This document shows, in pieces, positions 2,673 through 9,435 of a DNA stretch of 64,000 bases. How positions within the stretch are numbered: the stretch's first letter is position 1; the number at the start of each line of letters is the position of its first letter. The position numbers were made by a program, and so were the translations under genes. The notes under the pieces were generated by a model. The model ran no database searches, was not told where the DNA came from, and saw only the letters and a list, made by a program, of their open reading frames with translations. This stretch comes from Streptomyces sp. NBC_01689 (GTDB lineage: Bacteria; Actinomycetota; Actinomycetes; Streptomycetales; Streptomycetaceae), in contig NZ_CP109592.1 of assembly GCF_036250675.1 (NCBI RefSeq), positions 1,612,001 to 1,676,000 of the forward strand, given 5' to 3'.

Positions 2673-3794
2673 TCAGGGTGCGGATTTCTCGCGTTGCGTA
2701 CGCGCCTCGAAGCATTCCTTCCGGCCGCCCGCCGCGGGAAGGAAACAGGATCGCACGGACGTCCCGAGGCTGATCACGCTCATGGTGGTGTGGACATAGG
2801 TGTCCGCCTCGTTGCGGCTGGTGACCCGGGCGGCGCGGAGGGAGTCGTCCCGGCCGCCCACACGGATCTCGACACGGTCGTCCACGGCCGCGCCCCACAT
2901 CCGCACCCAACTCGTCCCGCATTCCTCGCTGTAGCGGACTTGGATCCAGGCTCCCGTGGTGGTCTCGTGCTCGGCGAGGGTCAACGGGGATGCGGCGCAC
3001 CGCGTCGAGATCGGGTCCTTGTTCTCGCAGGCGGTGTGCCGGCACAGTGCCCCCGTGACCGGAGGGGATGTGGGGGACGGTGACACCTGCCTGCGCGGGG
3101 CGGCGGGAAGGTGCGTCAGCACCAGTGTTCCCAGGACCACGGCGCCGAGCGCGGACGCGAGGGCGGCGAGGACGGTTGCGCGCCGGTGGGTGGCCGGGCC
3201 GAAGCGGGCGTGGTCAGGGGCGCGCGGTGCTGATTCGCTCGCGGCTGTCTCGCTCCGGCCCGTGGCGGGCGGAGAGCTGACGGGCCGAGCGGTGATGGAC
3301 GAGTCGGTCGGGGACGGGTCGGTCGCGGACGCGCCGGTCGCGGGGGCGTCGGTCGCGGGGGCGTCGGTCGCGGGGGCGTCGGTCGCGGGGGCCGCAGCCG
3401 GAGGGTCGCTTCGGGTGGCGGTGAGCTGCCGCGCGGGTGGCTCCCGCGTCGACTGGATGTCCTCCGTCGGGTCCGTCCGGTCCGACTGACCCACCTGATC
3501 CGCTGGGTTGGTCCGCTCCGTTCGGTCCGTTCGGTCCGTTCGGTCCGTTCGGTCCGTTCGGGCGATGTCCAAGAGCGCCAGCAGATGGTCCGCGGGCTCA
3601 CCGGCGAGACGGCACAGCTCCTTGACCGCACTGCGGGACGGCAGGCTCTTGCCGTTGAGATAGCGCTCCCAGGACGACTTGCTGAAGGTGGTCGCGTTCG
3701 CGAGCTGCGCCAGGCTCAGCCCGGTGCGCTGCTTCAACTGCCTCAGCGCGATGGCCAGTCGGGCACCCGACGGCGAGGGTGCGCTCGGAGTCAT
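2673..3794 (-). CDS. Membrane-anchored HTH protein with DUF2690 domain
   Basis: 373 residues. Residues 10-78 form an XRE/HTH_31-type helix-turn-helix (LSLAQLANATTFSKSSWERY). Residues 79-205 are a disordered Thr/Asp/Ala/Pro linker with RTD and APATD repeats. One membrane helix spans about 206-229 and the C-terminus is a DUF2690-like domain with at least six Cys (C251, C256, C266, C291 and two near the end), suited to disulfides outside the cell. Predicted topology: DNA-binding domain inside, Cys domain outside. The start overlaps the stop of the upstream HTH-PGBD gene (ATGA), so translation is coupled. Frames further upstream in this phase are shadow. Function is unknown; a membrane-bound transcription regulator is inferred. 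Confidence 0.85.
   Translation of the reverse strand: MTPSAPSPSGARLAIALRQLKQRTGLSLAQLANATTFSKSSWERYLNGKSLPSRSAVKELCRLAGEPADHLLALLDIARTDRTDRTDRTDRTERTNPADQVGQSDRTDPTEDIQSTREPPARQLTATRSDPPAAAPATDAPATDAPATDAPATGASATDPSPTDSSITARPVSSPPATGRSETAASESAPRAPDHARFGPATHRRATVLAALASALGAVVLGTLVLTHLPAAPRRQVSPSPTSPPVTGALCRHTACENKDPISTRCAASPLTLAEHETTTGAWIQVRYSEECGTSWVRMWGAAVDDRVEIRVGGRDDSLRAARVTSRNEADTYVHTTMSVISLGTSVRSCFLPAAGGRKECFEARTQREKSAP
3331..3390. repeat. 15-bp tandem repeat (4 copies) in the HTH-DUF2690 linker
   Basis: Four head-to-tail copies of GCGYCGGTCGCGGGG, the last three identical. They encode APATD-type units in the linker between the DNA-binding and membrane parts and keep frame, so copy number could change linker length without breaking the gene. 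Confidence 0.85.
3524..3559. repeat. 9-bp tandem repeat (4 copies) in the HTH-DUF2690 linker
   Basis: Four perfect copies of GGTCCGTTC, with degenerate copies on the 5' side. They encode RTD-type units just after the helix-turn-helix, and being a multiple of three the array is frame-neutral. Confidence 0.85.
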
Positions 3795-4756
3795 CCGCGC
3801 AGCGCCTTCCAGGAGCGCGGCCCCAGCATGCCGTCGGCGACCAGGCCGGCGCGTTGTTGAAACGCCTTGACCGCCCGCAGGGTCAACGGGCCGAACATGC
3901 CGTCGATCCCACCGGGTGAGATGCCTGCCCGGCGCAGCAGGCACTGCGCCTCGGCGACATCGGCACCGGTGGCGCCGTAGAAGATCTCGGTGTTCCGGCC
4001 GTCGTTGATGCCGGCCGACCAGTGACCGTCGACGCGAGTGATGCGGCAGGTGTAGGTGGGCGGTGGCGAGGCCGTGGTGGTGCGGGGCGAGACCACGACA
4101 GGCGCCGGAGCACCGTCCTCGTCGAGGCGCAGCATGAGCAGCACCGCCGCCAGTACGGCGACGGTCAGGGCGACGACGCCCGCCGTGAGGGCGATGTGCG
4201 GGAACCGGCCGGGGGCGGGGGCGGGTGACGGCGTGCGGTCGATCGACGAGGCCGGTGCCGCGACCTGCGGCTCCGTCTGCTGTATCGGTGGTATCGGCTG
4301 TCCCTGCTTCTCCTCCCGCTCCTCGCCCTGATCCCCTCTCCCCTCCCGCGGGCGCTCGCGCTGTTGTTCCTGCTCCTGCTCTTTTTCGTGCTCTTTCTCC
4401 TGCTGCCGTTCCGGCTGTTGTCCCTCCTGGTGTCGCCGCTCCCGCACGGGCGCGGTGGGCCGGGGTGGTGCGGCCGGGCCGGCACGGCGGCTGCCCCAGG
4501 TGGCGGCGGCGACCTCGTGCAACGCGAAGAGAGGGACGGGGTCGGCGCCGGTGATCCGGGCCAGCGCCTCGACCGCTTCCCCGGGCGGCAGCGTCGTACC
4601 TCCCAGGTAGCGCTCCCACGACCTGGCGCTGTAGCCGGTCTTGGCCGCGAGTTGCCGCATCGTCAACTCGCTGTGGTCCTTGAGTCGACGTAACTGCTCG
4701 ATCAACTGCCGGGCGCAGGGATCTAGTTCGGCGGGCAGCACCTTGGAGCGCGGCAT
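3791..4756 (-). CDS. Membrane-anchored HTH protein with extracytoplasmic peptidoglycan-binding domain
   Basis: 321 residues. Residues 16-75 are an HTH_31-type DNA-binding domain (LTMRQLAAKTGYSARSWERY). Residues 107-150 are extremely charged and Gln/Glu-rich, probably coiled coil. A single membrane helix lies at about 187-209. The C-terminus (262-318) is a PG_binding_1 domain (DGMFGPLTLRAVKAFQ, DGMLGPRSWKAL) with Cys237 and Cys272 placed much like the Cys pairs in the secreted protein at 5718-7364. The start MPRSK is preceded by a G-rich tract; an upstream Met at 4819 would add 21 residues. The next gene overlaps by ATGA. A cell-wall-sensing membrane regulator is inferred; no direct function is known to me. 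Confidence 0.87.
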   Translation of the reverse strand: MPRSKVLPAELDPCARQLIEQLRRLKDHSELTMRQLAAKTGYSARSWERYLGGTTLPPGEAVEALARITGADPVPLFALHEVAAATWGSRRAGPAAPPRPTAPVRERRHQEGQQPERQQEKEHEKEQEQEQQRERPREGRGDQGEEREEKQGQPIPPIQQTEPQVAAPASSIDRTPSPAPAPGRFPHIALTAGVVALTVAVLAAVLLMLRLDEDGAPAPVVVSPRTTTASPPPTYTCRITRVDGHWSAGINDGRNTEIFYGATGADVAEAQCLLRRAGISPGGIDGMFGPLTLRAVKAFQQRAGLVADGMLGPRSWKALRG

Positions 4757-4848
4757 GTTTCCCCCCAATGCGTTCATCGGTGTCAACAGCGGCCCCCTCC
4801 GCTGTTGCGCATTCTGCATGAGCCCACCACATCTGTCACAGGTGTCTC

Positions 4849-4876
4849 ACGCCACCGTCCTGCGGGACGGTGGCGT
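4849..4876. promoter_or_regulatory. Perfect 12-bp hairpin in the divergent intergenic region
   Basis: ACGCCACCGTCC (4849-4860) pairs perfectly with 4865-4876 around a TGCG loop. It lies between the divergent HTH-PGBD gene and the secreted PGBD gene, so it is an operator, an attenuator or part of a structured leader rather than an end-of-operon terminator. Confidence 0.45.
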
Positions 4877-4967
4877 CCCAGGTCAGCGGGGTGGTCGTCC
4901 CGAAAAGCCGCCACCTGCGCCGCGGAGGTAGCCGTCGCGCCCGGGTCGCCCGCACCTTGGATCTCGC

Positions 4968-4993
4968 CACCTGCCCGCCGGGCGGGACAGGTG
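4968..4993 (+). promoter_or_regulatory. Leader hairpin upstream of the secreted PGBD gene
   Basis: CACCTG-CCCGCC pairs with GGCGGG-a-CAGGTG, ending 26 bases before the ATG at 5020. A competing pairing exists between GCACCT (4952-4957) and AGGTGC (4989-4994). Mutually exclusive stems near a ribosome-binding site are suggestive of a cis-regulatory RNA. It does not match the ydaO consensus as I know it. Confidence 0.35.
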
Positions 4994-5019
4994 CCGACCC
5001 ACGACCGAAAGAGGAACGC

Positions 5020-5466
5020 ATGCGACCGAACGCTCTGGGCAGGACCATCGCCGGCCTCATCGCCGTTGCCGGCCTCGCCGCCGGAAGTGTGGCGACCGCG
5101 GGGACCAGCTTCGCGGCGACCGCGACCACCGCGCGGTCCGCCGTGGCCGTACAGCCCGCAGCCGCGGCCGCGACGCAGAACTTCGGCCTGACCACGGCCG
5201 AGGCCAAGAACGTCCAGGAGTTCCTCGCGGACTACTGGGGTTACACCGACTCCATCGACGGCCAGCTGGGCACCAACAGCTGGAAGGCATTCCAGCGCTG
5301 CCTCGCGAGGTACTGGGGATACACGGGCGCCATCGACGGGGACCCGGGCACCAACACCATCAAGGCGCTGCAGCGTCTGCTGGCGGACGACTACGGCTAC
5401 ACGGGCGCGATCGACGGCGTCGCCGGGGCGGGCACCCGGGCGGCGTTCAAGCGCTTCGCCGCCTGA
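5020..5466 (+). CDS. Secreted protein with three peptidoglycan-binding-like repeats
   Basis: 148 residues. An N-terminal signal peptide (about residues 1-33, ending near SFAA) is followed by three ~33-residue repeats of the PG_binding_1 type, each with a WGYT/YGYT-x-x-IDG core and a TxxxxKALQR-like helix. Only one Cys is present. The ATG follows GAGG with a 5-base gap; the frame remains open upstream, but the signal peptide fixes this start. It is divergent from the membrane HTH-PGBD gene and about 250 bases before the CHAP-PGBD gene. It probably binds cell wall; no catalytic domain is present. Confidence 0.88.
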   Translation: MRPNALGRTIAGLIAVAGLAAGSVATAGTSFAATATTARSAVAVQPAAAAATQNFGLTTAEAKNVQEFLADYWGYTDSIDGQLGTNSWKAFQRCLARYWGYTGAIDGDPGTNTIKALQRLLADDYGYTGAIDGVAGAGTRAAFKRFAA

Positions 5467-5481
5467 TCAGCCCGGCTCACC

Positions 5482-5525
5482 CGGCGGGGCCGCCGTTCGG
5501 ACCGGTCCGAACGGCGGCCCCGCCG
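5482..5525. terminator. 44-bp perfect palindrome after the secreted PGBD gene
   Basis: Two 22-base arms (5482-5503, 5504-5525) are exactly complementary with no loop, starting 16 bases after the stop codon. The form and position fit a strong Rho-independent terminator without a T tract. Confidence 0.65.
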
Positions 5526-5536
5526 ACCGACACCGG

Positions 5537-5576
5537 GTCCCGGCCCGTCCTCGCGGAGCGAGGGCGGGCCGGGGAC
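5537..5576. terminator. Second imperfect hairpin downstream
   Basis: A stem of about 16 pairs with one G-T pair and one bulge (5537-5553 against 5559-5576), directly after the perfect palindrome. The tandem hairpins insulate the CHAP gene from upstream transcription. Confidence 0.4.
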
Positions 5577-5717
5577 GCGTGTTCCCGCTCCTCGTCCGGA
5601 CCGGGTCCGGCCCCGTGACCACGCGGCGCAGGCCGGAAAGCACCGGACACACCCGACGGCCGTCACATGACCATGCGTCAGGCCGTGTTCCAGCGAACGA
5701 AGGAGAACCTCGCCGCC

Positions 5718-7364
5718 ATGGGAAGACTCGCGCCCCCAGTGCGCACCGAAGACGCAAGCTCACGGCGCCGGGAGGCGCGCCGCACCGGGACCGGGTGGCG
5801 GATCCGCGTCGGGACCTTCGCCGCAACCGCGGCGATGATCTCGGCCGGCCTCGTGCTCGGTGCCGGCCCCGCGATGGCGGCCGCGCCCGCCGCGATCAAG
5901 CTGACCTCCGCGTCCTGCCCCGTCGAGATCGTGCAGGGTCAACTCAGCGGCTGTGTGACGGAGTTGCAGAACCTGCTCAACGCGCACGGTGCCGGTCTGG
6001 TGGTGGACGGCCAGTTCGGGCCGAGTACGCTCTACGCGGTCCGTGAGTACCAGGCGTCCACCGCGATCGCCGTGGACGGGCGGGTGGGCCCCGCGACCAA
6101 GAGCAAGCTGTACGCGACCGGAGGCTCGGCGCCGGCCCCGATCAACCTCCAGTCCTCCTCGTGCCCCGCGAACATCGTCCAGGGCGACAAGGGCGGTTGT
6201 GTCACCGAGCTCCAGCGGCTGCTGCGCCACCACGGTTACGCGGTGGACGTCGACGGCGACTTCGGCGCCGGGACCGCGAGTGCCGTGCGCAGCTTCCAGA
6301 CCTCCTACGGCCTGACGGCCGACGGCCAGGTCGGCACCAACACCAAGCGTGCGCTGTACGACACCGACGAGTCACCCTCGACGGGCCTGGACCTGCGGTC
6401 GTCATCCTGCCCGGAGAACATCGTGGAGGGCCAGAGCGGCGGTTGCATCGCCACGCTGCAGTCGCTGCTGAACGGCAAGGGCCAGAGCCTCGACGTCGAC
6501 GGCAGTTTCGGCCCCCAGACCCTGGCGGCCGTGAAGGCGTTCCAGTCCGCGAGCGGCCTCAGCGCCGACGGCGAGGTCGGTCCGAACACCAAGGCCGCCC
6601 TGTACGCGAACATCGGCGGTGGCGGCGGCAACGGCGCGCCCGCGCCGATCAACCTGAACTCCGCCTCCTGCCCCGGCGAGATCGTCCAGGGGCAGCGGAG
6701 CGGCTGCGTCACCGAGCTGCAGAGCCTGCTCAACCACCACGGTGCCGACCTAGCCGTCGACGGCGACTTCGGTTCGCTCACCGACAGCGCCGTCCGGGAC
6801 TTCCAGGCCGAGAAGGGTCTCTCGGTCGACGGCCATGTCGGTCCGAACACCAAGTCCGCACTGTACGGCGCGGTCACCCCGCCGTCGTCGCCCCCGCCCG
6901 GCGGTGGCTACGCCAAGATGCTCGACGTGGCCGCGGCCGAGGTCGGTACGGTCGAGGGCAGCGCCCGCGCGAACAGCTACGGCTCCGCGGTGGGGCTCTC
7001 GCTGTCCACCAGCGACTACGCCTGGTGCGCGACCTTCGTGAGCTGGGTGGCCAAGCAGACCGGGGCCACCTCCTACCGCAACTCCTATGTCTCGGGCTGG
7101 GTCAAGCAGGCGCGGGCCGGCAACTACCACCTGTCGGTGACGACCAGCCCGCAGCCGGGTGACATCGTGGCCTTCGACTGGGACGGCGGAAGCGACTTCA
7201 CCGGCGGGAACGAACACATAGGTTTCGTGCGGACGGTGTCCGGGTCGTCCTTCACCACGGTCGAGGGCAACACGGGTAACCCCAACGGCGGCAGTGACGG
7301 TGTGTACGTCAAGTCGCGTTCCACGAACAGCGGTTACGACGTGGTCTTCATCCGGGTCCGCTGA
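5718..7364 (+). CDS. Secreted CHAP-domain cell-wall hydrolase with four PGBD repeats
   Basis: 548 residues. A long signal peptide (to about residue 53, AMAA) precedes four PG_binding_1 repeats at about 56-125, 140-210, 223-293 and 311-381. Each repeat carries a Cys pair (SSCPxxIVxG...GCV/I). A Gly/Pro linker leads to a C-terminal CHAP domain (about 399-548) with the catalytic Cys near 436 (WCATFVSW) and His near 500 (EHIGFV). CHAP enzymes are amidases or endopeptidases of peptidoglycan. The chosen ATG follows AAGGAG with a 12-base gap; an upstream ATG at 5667 has no ribosome site. The 20 bases ending at this ATG recur almost exactly before the DUF4177 gene at 57124. Confidence 0.9.
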   Translation: MGRLAPPVRTEDASSRRREARRTGTGWRIRVGTFAATAAMISAGLVLGAGPAMAAAPAAIKLTSASCPVEIVQGQLSGCVTELQNLLNAHGAGLVVDGQFGPSTLYAVREYQASTAIAVDGRVGPATKSKLYATGGSAPAPINLQSSSCPANIVQGDKGGCVTELQRLLRHHGYAVDVDGDFGAGTASAVRSFQTSYGLTADGQVGTNTKRALYDTDESPSTGLDLRSSSCPENIVEGQSGGCIATLQSLLNGKGQSLDVDGSFGPQTLAAVKAFQSASGLSADGEVGPNTKAALYANIGGGGGNGAPAPINLNSASCPGEIVQGQRSGCVTELQSLLNHHGADLAVDGDFGSLTDSAVRDFQAEKGLSVDGHVGPNTKSALYGAVTPPSSPPPGGGYAKMLDVAAAEVGTVEGSARANSYGSAVGLSLSTSDYAWCATFVSWVAKQTGATSYRNSYVSGWVKQARAGNYHLSVTTSPQPGDIVAFDWDGGSDFTGGNEHIGFVRTVSGSSFTTVEGNTGNPNGGSDGVYVKSRSTNSGYDVVFIRVR

Positions 7365-7450
7365 GCGGCCGTGCCGGGGTTCCCGGGAGGTCTCGCCCGC
7401 ACCGGGCGGTCTCCTCGGAGCTCCGGCACTCCGCACCCCGCCCCGGAGGG

Positions 7451-7660
7451 TCAGGCGGGCCGGACCTCCACGGCTCGTACCGCCGCGACCGCCCCTTCGG
7501 TCGCGTAGATGACGGGCTGTCCCTCCGTGACCCGGTCCACGAACCTGATGGCCTGTGCCTGGAAGGGAACGTGCTCGTCACCGCCGTAGGGCGCGATGAG
7601 GCCTAGCCCGTTCGCGACATCGAAGGAGACCACCTTGCCGGCTCGCAGACCACTCCGCAC
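7451..7660 (-). CDS. Divergent cold-shock-domain-like small protein
   Basis: 69 residues from a GTG that follows GGAGG with a 6-base gap. The whole protein aligns by eye to a cold-shock domain: AGKVVSFDVANGLGLIAPYGG matches the KWFNxxKGFGFI strand, and EGQPVIYATEGAVAAVRAV the last strands. Both RNA-binding motifs are altered: RNP1 reads NGLGLIA instead of KGFGFI, and RNP2 reads EHVPFQ instead of VFVHF, removing most stacking aromatics. It may have lost nucleic-acid binding or changed specificity. It stands alone, convergent with the CHAP gene. Confidence 0.75.
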   Translation of the reverse strand: MRSGLRAGKVVSFDVANGLGLIAPYGGDEHVPFQAQAIRFVDRVTEGQPVIYATEGAVAAVRAVEVRPA

Positions 7661-7983
7661 CTGACACCTCCGCTGACGCTGCCGACCAGTGCCCCATCTT
7701 TCCCCTTCCGAAGGGGTCCGCAACCCGAATCCCCGAACGGGCGCAGACCTTCACTCCGTGACGGGGCCGCCGTCCAGGAGGGTGCCGCCCGTGCCGCAGC
7801 GGGCCGGCACCCGGCGGCAGTGCGCCCGGCCCGGGCAGGAGCGGCCGCCGTCCCGGCCTCACCCTTCCGAACGATCGCGGTCCGAATCCGTACAACCATC
7901 CGGCCACCCCGTATGTCGTAGAGCGCAGTCGATCTGATCTTCTTCACAGGTCACTCACAGCACGTTCTCGACAACGGAGTCCC
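7661..7983. other. Divergent intergenic region without a recognisable gene
   Basis: This 323-base stretch holds the promoters of the CSD-like gene (minus) and the FG-GAP gene (plus). The last 90 bases are comparatively AT-rich, as expected of a promoter for the FG-GAP gene. I see no confident -35/-10 pair or conserved motif. Confidence 0.4.
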
Positions 7984-9435
7984 ATGCACGCCAGACGTAC
8001 CGCGCTCGCTGCCGCCGTGGCCCTCGTGGCAGCGGTCTGCACACCGTTCCTGACCGCCCCCGTGGCCTCGGCGGCTCCCGCCAAGCTGCCCGACGACTTC
8101 AACGGCGACGGCTACCGTGACCTCGTCATGCAGGGCGGCACCCACGGCAAGGACGGCCGCATCACCGTCGTCTACGGCACCTCGTCCGGTCCCGGTACCC
8201 GCGTCCAGACCATCCACCAGGACTCGCCGGGCATCCCGGGCTCGGTGGAGGCGGGGGACGGGTGGGCAACCGCCGCCACCACGGCCGACCTCGACCGCGA
8301 CGGCTACGCCGACCTGGTCGTCTCCTCGCCCGGCGAGAACGTCGGCGACATAAAGATGCGCGGCGGGCTGACCGTCGTGTGGGGTGGCGCCCAGGGCCTC
8401 GGCTCGGGCACGGTCTTCAACTCGCCGGTCCCGCAGGAGTACGAGAACGCGGGTGACGCGTTCGGTGAGGACGTGGTGTCCGGTGACTTCGACGGCGACG
8501 GCGACCAGGACCTGGCCGTCACCAGCAACAGCCGGGCGGGTGTGGTCCTCCTGAAGGGCCCCTTCACCCGCGCCGGCGGCAAGAGCGGCTGGAGCTCCCT
8601 GGGCGACTCCTACGGCCTCCTGTGGGGCGCCGACCTGGTCGCCGGGCGGGTCACCGCCGACGCCGCCACCGACCTGTACATCCTCGGCGCCGACCTCCAG
8701 CGCAACAGCGATGTGGACCTGCGGGCCTACTTCCACCGCGGCGGCAGCACCTTCACCCAGCGCGCGGCCGAGGTGCGGGTGCCCGACGACGGGGGCCACC
8801 AGAGCGGCGACCTCCTCTCCGTCGGTGACTTCGACAAGGACGGCTACGGCGACCTCGCCATCGGCCGCGGCTACGAACCGGGCGACCGTGAACGCGGTTA
8901 CGTGACGGTCCAGTACGGGGGCTCGAACGGGCCCAACTCCGCGCGCAAACCGGTCAAGTTCACCCAGGACACGGCCGGCGTGCCGGGCTCCTCCGAGAAC
9001 GGGGACCGCTTCGGCGCGGCCGTCGCCGCCGGTGACGTCAACGGTGACGGCTACGCGGACCTCGCCGTCGGCATCCCGGGCGAGGACCTCGGCACCACGC
9101 GCGACGCCGGCACGGTCACCGTCCTCCTCGGCCGCGCCGGAGGCCTGTCCGGCACCGGTGCCAAGTCCTTCACCCAGGACACCTCGGGCATCACCGGCAC
9201 CGCCGAGGCCGACGATCTGTTCGGCGCCCACCTCAAGCTCACCGACTTCACCCGGGACGGCCGCTCGGACCTCCTGATCGACACCAATGAGCAGCTGGGC
9301 TCCGACAACCGCTGGGGCCTCGTCCACCAGCTGAAGGGCTCCGCCTCGGGCATCACGGCGACGGGCTCGAAGTCCTACTCCGTGACGTCGTTGAAGATGT
9401 CGTACAACCGACTGGGCGGACCGTTCGCCCGCTGA
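7984..9435 (+). CDS. Secreted FG-GAP/integrin-alpha-like beta-propeller protein
   Basis: 483 residues. The signal peptide (about 1-32, ending VASA-AP) is followed only by FG-GAP repeats. Six Asp-rich calcium-binding loops are visible (DFNGDGYRD, DLDRDGYAD, DFDGDGDQD, DFDKDGYGD, DVNGDGYAD, DFTRDGRSD), consistent with a six- or seven-bladed propeller filling the protein. No catalytic domain is fused. Such proteins are exported and thought to mediate adhesion or ligand binding; the partner here is unknown. The start has a weak ACGGAG ribosome site. A hairpin terminator follows. Confidence 0.9.
   Translation: MHARRTALAAAVALVAAVCTPFLTAPVASAAPAKLPDDFNGDGYRDLVMQGGTHGKDGRITVVYGTSSGPGTRVQTIHQDSPGIPGSVEAGDGWATAATTADLDRDGYADLVVSSPGENVGDIKMRGGLTVVWGGAQGLGSGTVFNSPVPQEYENAGDAFGEDVVSGDFDGDGDQDLAVTSNSRAGVVLLKGPFTRAGGKSGWSSLGDSYGLLWGADLVAGRVTADAATDLYILGADLQRNSDVDLRAYFHRGGSTFTQRAAEVRVPDDGGHQSGDLLSVGDFDKDGYGDLAIGRGYEPGDRERGYVTVQYGGSNGPNSARKPVKFTQDTAGVPGSSENGDRFGAAVAAGDVNGDGYADLAVGIPGEDLGTTRDAGTVTVLLGRAGGLSGTGAKSFTQDTSGITGTAEADDLFGAHLKLTDFTRDGRSDLLIDTNEQLGSDNRWGLVHQLKGSASGITATGSKSYSVTSLKMSYNRLGGPFAR

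Follow-up and report, generated by a model that had tools for sequence, protein, structure and literature searches.

The predicted regulator pair and its secreted neighbours

The window (the whole stretch of 64,000 nucleotides analysed here, from contig NZ_CP109592.1 of Streptomyces sp. NBC_01689) carries two overlapping minus-strand genes for predicted membrane-bound regulators, a divergent gene for a small secreted protein, and an operator-like element between them. Regulator 1 (P0001, 321 aa; 3791–4756), defined by translation, Pfam, hydropathy and a survey of 37 loci, consists of a helix-turn-helix (HTH) domain of the HTH_31 family (aa 20–74; 4535–4699), a charged linker, a single transmembrane (TM) segment (about aa 188–206; 4139–4195) and a peptidoglycan-binding domain (PGBD) of the PG_binding_1 family outside the membrane (aa 263–319; 3800–3970). 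Regulator 2 (P0004, 373 aa; 2673–3794) consists of an HTH_31 domain (aa 12–71; 3582–3761), a repeat-rich linker, one TM segment (about aa 208–226; 3117–3173) and a Cys-rich DUF2690 domain outside the membrane (aa 255–338; 2781–3032), the latter located by Pfam and alignment. The two genes share an ATGA overlap. The original prediction, which was made from the letters of this DNA, had described this architecture, and it is borne out by translation, Pfam and hydropathy. HTH_31 and PG_binding_1 in P0001 and HTH_31 and DUF2690 in P0004 are all above the Pfam cut-offs, and each protein has one hydrophobic segment after a low-complexity linker. P0004 fits the HTH_31-DUF2690 protein class and has many homologues. 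With a TM segment and a DNA-binding domain on one chain, both proteins have the layout of transmembrane transcription regulators (TTRs), as judged by Pfam and hydropathy.

According to the hydropathy and the nature of the domains, the HTH heads of both membrane proteins are predicted to face the cytoplasm; the outside-in topology, named beforehand as evidence to the contrary, is not indicated, by hydropathy only. In the alignment of 40 PGBD regulators C237 and C272 are invariant, and in that of 45 DUF2690 regulators C251, C256, C266 and C292 are invariant, in agreement with the predicted Cys residues of the outside domains. The HTH positions (SW.RYL) are strongly conserved in both alignments. 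A sequence search against solved structures matched the PGBD regulator to known PGBD chains, and the DUF2690 regulator gave weak matches over the HTH part only. Tandem repeats with units of 15 bp and 9 bp (3303–3392 and 3517–3561; ATDAP and TDR repeats) occupy part of the linker-coding region of the DUF2690 regulator gene, and given these repeats the linker may be variable in length.

Two sets of loci were surveyed. For the first, 101 genomes of the genus were sampled, of which 39 gave matches at E<=1e-20; 40 stretches, the window and further stretches of its own genome gave 37 loci with an open reading frame (ORF) carrying HTH and PGBD, from 35 genomes. For the second, contigs were scanned with a profile of 40 homologues and the best 80 of 232 relatives were taken, with a bias to close ones. 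This set comprises 79 named loci, nearly all from Streptomyces, plus Streptacidiphilus, Actinacidiphila and Catenulispora. L179 and L212 have no intact HTH+PGBD ORF and were dropped, leaving 77, and six loci overlap the training set of the element described below, leaving 71 held-out loci. A partner gene lies directly downstream of the HTH-PGBD gene in 37/37 first-set loci. The partner has an HTH in 36/37 and DUF2690 in the same ORF in 35/37, with both together in 34/37; in L057 DUF2690 is on the ORF next to the HTH ORF, and in L059 the HTH is seen and the ORF is cut by the contig end. Among the held-out loci the partner has an HTH in 71/71, and DUF2690 was seen in 67/71. The HTH_31-PGBD and HTH_31-DUF2690 pair is a conserved unit. 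A second HTH_31-TM-PGBD gene of the window's genome is likewise followed by an ATGA-overlapping HTH_31-TM-DUF2690 gene, and it faces a divergent small secreted protein with no Pfam family. This second complete pair and the operator-like element had been missed by the original prediction.

The divergent gene of the window (5020–5466, plus strand) encodes a secreted protein of 148 aa (P0005) with PGBD repeats, the putative controlled gene according to translation, Pfam and the locus survey. It had been described as a triple-PGBD protein; Pfam supports two stretches, and the third is seen by eye only. In 30/37 first-set loci the nearest upstream gene is divergent, at most 170 aa and read as secreted (the start is clipped in L066). 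The corresponding number by script is 61/71 held-out loci, better read as 60/71 because the glyoxalase-like gene of L224 is doubtful. A PGBD is present in the nearest divergent gene of 55/71 held-out loci. All secretion calls are made from hydropathy only, and some starts (L134, L136, L066) were clipped in gene calling.

The next gene (5667–7364, plus strand) encodes the predicted secreted CHAP hydrolase with four PGBDs, confirmed by translation, Pfam and the locus surveys; the protein likely starts near 5718 rather than at 5667. A Cys layout shared between its repeats and the membrane PGBD had been proposed, and this does not hold. The spacing is 12 residues in the repeats (SCP..GCVTELQ) versus 35 in the membrane protein, where the second Cys follows the Q of EAQCLL. 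The CHAP gene occurs in 2/37 first-set loci (the window and L042) and in 10/79 named loci, one of which, L191, is the same contig as L042. It is a clade-specific neighbour and not the core of the module. Of the four-gene neighbourhood of the original prediction, the pair is kept, in most loci facing a small secreted gene, and the CHAP gene is not; the lack of linkage named beforehand as contrary evidence is not observed for the pair. The CHAP gene was dropped as a core target because, in the sets examined, only the window's clade has it and because the window has no weight-matrix match above 13 besides the element. In L205 of S. griseorubiginosus the CHAP gene (3093–4820) is itself the nearest divergent gene, in place of the small PGBD gene.

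Several further arrangements of DUF2690 genes were observed. A third HTH-DUF2690 gene follows the PGBD pair in several genomes. Two further DUF2690 loci, L010 (mdh/folD-like) and L011 (fumarase-like), have no weight-matrix match above 13. In L010, from the window's genome, a short HTH-TM protein with no outside domain is encoded beside an HTH-TM-DUF2690 protein (5552–7803); in L011 an HTH-TM-DUF2690 gene lies just 3' of a small secreted gene (7042–8492), with two fumarase-like genes flanking them.

The operator-like element

Across the 37 loci, the intergenic sequences have words in common far above the level of shuffled ones. The element between the divergent genes has the form GGGACGTCCC-N6-TGACCTGC-N-GGGAYG. 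According to the position profile, more GGGAC-like boxes follow at about +42 and +53, and blocks read as the putative -35/-10 of the secreted gene lie at a fixed distance. In the window the element is at 4842–4914 on the minus strand (R1 match of the sequence model at E 8.6e-10, the window sequence being in the training set). Its 31-bp core (4871–4901, minus strand) is an imperfect match to the weight matrix GGGACGTCCCA-N4-CTGACCTGC-N-GGGAYG, and the score of 19.9 is the lowest among the 34 first-set sites. A perfect 12-bp inverted repeat is located within the operator region at 4849–4876. A promoter-like site for the two regulators (GTGACA-17-CAGAAT; 4811–4839, minus strand), predicted by pattern match only (1 found, mean 0.0 in shuffles), abuts the last GGGAC-like box. 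On the other side, a region of CTGTGGC-like and GCA-n-T-like blocks (4926–4961, plus strand) is conserved in related loci according to the profile of 95 sites. We read these blocks as putative -35 and -10 boxes for the divergent gene; they are weak in the window copy.

The weight matrix scores above 19 in 34/37 first-set loci, and the best score among 296 random sequences, which were first-order Markov draws and not exact shuffles, is 8.0. Of the remaining loci, L067 has the element with a spacer one base shorter, and L044 and L072 have no element upstream of the pair. In L072 the product of the divergent gene is not secreted, and the element sits downstream of the pair together with a secreted gene. 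A second copy of the element is found 5' of a second secreted PGBD gene in L066. Among the held-out loci the element scores above 15 in 61/71; these are 61 of the 65 loci titled Streptomyces or (L189) Actinobacteria bacterium, and one of the four misses, L218, is cut upstream by the contig end. The element and the divergent small secreted gene go together in the held-out loci: 59 have both, 8 have neither and 4 are discordant. In 1055 site pairs chosen for diverged flanks, the identity is 72% in the element versus 34% and 28% in the flanks.

Two approaches were given up. A covariation between HTH residues and the motif, sought by eye, was not used since it is confounded by descent; here the partner HTH has PPW in seven matched motif-negative loci, PPR in L218, and PPR or PPL in the positives. 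The exact core pattern CTGACCTGCNGGGAYG was rejected as a regulon list, with 70 matches versus 32 for the backwards-read control in 101 genomes; one of its matches, G077:C25, has no weight-matrix support.

A sequence-only model trained on 36 sites was scanned over the 101 genomes. The window's genome has two strong sites only, both at pair loci (E<1e-9), and the next match is at 1e-3. Sites at E<=1e-6 are present in 35/35 genomes with the HTH+PGBD ORF versus 1/66 without it, where absence means no such ORF among the matches at E<=1e-20 (8 of the 66 were rechecked at 1e-5). The Fisher p value of 2e-26 is uncorrected for relatedness and partly circular, as these same loci served to train the model. 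The sole exception, G014, has its site near a gene for a secreted protein and near an HTH-TM gene that lacks a PGBD. Unlinked sites at E<=1e-6, which are independent of training, occur in 7/35 genomes with the gene versus 1/66 without (p 0.002). At the looser E<=0.01, 81/101 genomes have matches, taken as mostly noise.

Twenty sites outside the training set were examined, the 15 best (E<=3.0e-5) and 5 weaker ones. At 13 of the 15 best, a gene read as secreted lies about 95–240 bp away on the predicted side; 12 of these targets are small and one is a 530-aa PGBD protein. The targets in L134 and L136 have clipped starts with signal-peptide-like residues upstream in frame. A strict script finds a small secreted gene at 10/15, versus 4.6% of other genes. 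One strong copy lies among transposase genes on another contig (L133:4153–4225), and one weak copy of the window's genome (L151:4518–4590; E 1e-3) lies some 100 bp upstream of a gene for a Lon-like protease. Weak weight-matrix matches, each containing the TGACCTGC core, are located 98–99 bp upstream of a lipoprotein-like gene near hemB-like genes (scores in brackets) in L046:3703–4030 (9.1), L048:11500–11886 (10.6), L049:3772–4081 (17.5) and L052:2944–3258 (13.4). Since these copies lie upstream of homologous genes, the small lipoprotein may be a further member of the regulon.

Secreted partners and the ricin-type candidate sensors

The secreted partners vary, and the pair and the element stay. 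By Pfam, PG_binding_1 and Inhibitor_I36 are among the families of the partners; one partner matches the alpha-amylase inhibitor family below the threshold, and 12/19 tested have no Pfam family at E<=0.01. On a tree of 108 regulators the target classes need 12 changes, possibly too many by a few, and the motif presence needs 6; the class labels are partly wrong, as 'otherSec' wrongly holds L072, where the divergent gene product is not secreted, and probably also L224, and the 59-aa call of L066 has a clipped start. A PGBD is found in 25/48 nearest target-side genes versus 2/35 other small secreted proteins, and one of these two (L066_6) is at an element. The secreted protein and the outside domain of the sensor are 47% identical over 73 residues in L065 and 33% identical over 101 residues in L053.

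Among five stretches taken from genomes that lack the PGBD pair, G018 was found to encode an HTH_31-TM-Ricin_B_lectin protein with the core element 5' of the gene. A search for such sensors gave matches in 14 of the 101 genomes. The core is upstream in 5/5 loci matched over the HTH part (L236, L237, L239, L244 and L248; scores 12.8 to 25.1). L247 and L249, matched over the lectin part only (13.6 and 12.6), were not counted; L249 has a separate HTH ORF beside the lectin ORF. Three HTH_31-TM-Ricin_B_lectin regulators with the operator core are L233:4265–5134, L283:3467–4324 and L284:4848–5711. The sensor of L284 faces a secreted ricin lectin (4023–4553) across the element; those of L233 and L283 face NlpC/P60-like secreted proteins, just below the Pfam cut-off, and in L283 a secreted ricin lectin follows the NlpC/P60-like gene. 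In L285 (4669–5153) and L286 (4079–5489), HTH-TM proteins with an ectodomain of no known type face a similar 93-aa secreted protein, with no Pfam family, across the core.

Proposed mechanism, rival explanations and known systems

These features suggest that the two proteins are probably single-pass transmembrane one-component regulators of secreted surface proteins, and very probably that they regulate the divergent secreted gene. The regulator function that had been proposed for the divergent genes is thus supported for the small secreted gene, by linkage and by a conserved element that tracks the pair and recurs before secreted genes, and not for the CHAP gene. The cytoplasmic HTH_31 heads, perhaps as homo- and heterodimers, would bind the multi-box element formed by the GGGACGTCCC palindrome, TGACCTGC and more GGGAC boxes. 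With the element upstream of its putative -35, the secreted gene would most likely be activated by binding; we favour this effect with rather less confidence than the regulation itself. The GGGAC-like box touching the -35 of the regulators' own promoter would allow self-control. Outside the membrane, the PGBD and the Cys-rich DUF2690 domain may read the cell wall, as suggested by the PGBD fold only. As the secreted product has the fold of the sensor in many loci, we tentatively propose a feedback by wall occupancy, in which product and sensor would compete for wall sites; free sites would turn the gene on, and occupied sites would turn it off. A broader and more doubtful extension takes the ricin-lectin family, which faces secreted genes across the core, as its starting point, on a thin basis. 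HTH_31 TM regulators might copy the fold of the surface protein that they control (PGBD with PGBD, ricin with ricin) under one operator grammar, and measure the free binding sites for each secreted binder. The product would be exchangeable (I36-type, possibly amylase-inhibitor-like) in a plug-in module of surface defence.

A number of observations weigh against the proposed regulation. The 37 loci from which the motif was derived were also those on which it was first scored. The pair is kept and the element is lacking in all six non-Streptomyces held-out loci (0/6 have it; three other genera) and in L183, L193 and L195; these nine loci indicate that the pair can exist without the element, and the three other genera that the pair seems older than the element. 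L044 has the pair without a local element, yet an unlinked site elsewhere in the genome. No secreted gene was found at L133 and L145 of the 15 best sites. Among the 5 weaker sites, no convincing target was found at L147, L148, L149 and L151, and the only candidate at L150 (4162–4526) is a gene for a lipoprotein-like product of 53 aa, at a distance of 131 bp; the homologous lipoprotein gene of L138 has no site. The partner in L051 (3135–3690) is a TM-DUF2690 protein without any HTH, which suggests that a DUF2690 protein is able to act without DNA contact of its own. The core also precedes a different HTH family, that of the ricin-type sensors, and only L284 of the three ricin-type sensors directly faces a lectin. 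The small protein of the window shows weak likeness to its own sensor.

Because the core is also found before this other HTH family, a third common regulator or sigma factor could be the binder, and the membrane HTH proteins would be mere members of its regulon. The TGACCTGC-N-GGGAYG core is common to loci of two families with different heads, and exact core matches, many by chance according to the control counts above (70 versus 32 in the 101 genomes), occur also in genomes without the HTH-PGBD gene. The strong full-length sites, restricted to 35/35 HTH-PGBD genomes versus 1/66 others, are hard to explain by a general regulator, and no other recurring regulator gene was noticed in the neighbourhoods read, where no systematic count was made. 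We consider this explanation improbable. The same holds for the idea that the module senses its own secreted product, as a quorum or self-recognition signal, and not the wall. The partner is small, variable and adjacent to the sensor, and several partners have no PGBD, as expected of a ligand; the PGBD, a wall-binding fold, nevertheless stays in the sensor while the partners change to I36 or to sequences of no known family. Less probable still is a scaffold like RodZ, in which the HTH heads would dock wall-synthesis or cytoskeletal proteins and not DNA, and the secreted neighbour would be a co-inherited wall protein. The gross layout of RodZ is alike, with an HTH inside, one TM segment and an outside domain, and the L051 partner does without an HTH. 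Against such a scaffold stand the conserved element, which accompanies the pair as well as unlinked secreted genes, and the strong conservation of the HTH positions; in addition, HTH_25 and the RodZ C-terminal (DUF4115-type) domain are absent from the Pfam matches at E<=0.1.

If the regulation of secreted genes by the pair is correct, DUF2690 gains a function that experiments can address, an operator and a regulon are predicted, and a coupling in Streptomyces of the wall state to the secretion of small wall-binding and inhibitor-like proteins becomes possible. The copying of the product fold by the sensor, if true, would link surface binding sites to transcription in a simple way, through one protein. 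In the open-access library searched, DUF2690 led only to work on a fungal secretome, and full-text searches for DUF2690, for Streptomyces membrane XRE/HTH regulators and for the core word gave nothing recognised as this system; subscription papers were outside the search.

TTRs are a known kind of regulator (Demey et al., 2023; PMC10269533) and likewise carry a DNA-binding domain and a TM segment on one chain. In a term search of the main text of that paper, XRE, HTH_31, peptidoglycan and DUF2690 were absent, and Streptomyces turned up only in a reference. Unlike the proteins described there, two such regulators are paired here, a conserved element accompanies them, and sensor and secreted product often share a fold. 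ToxR/TcpP and CadC are likewise membrane-anchored one-component regulators, and ToxR and TcpP act together. No winged helix is found in P0001 and P0004 among the Pfam matches at E<=0.1, and HTH_31 is present instead. The heads of ToxR/TcpP and CadC are of the winged-helix type (Trans_reg_C); the present pair differs in the HTH_31 head, the Gram-positive host and the wall-binding ectodomain. XRE/DUF397 pairs of the BldB/WhiJ type have a DUF397 partner protein, and no DUF397 is among the Pfam matches of P0001–P0005, with genes further out not scanned. RodZ has a cytoplasmic HTH (HTH_25), one TM segment and a DUF4115-type outside domain, whereas the HTH family and the ectodomain are different here and a DNA element tracks the genes. 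BlaR1 and the Clostridium RsgI systems control genes for enzymes or binding domains to which their own sensor domain is similar. These proteins signal via proteolysis or anti-sigma factors, whereas the predicted DNA-binding head of the present regulators is on the sensor chain itself.

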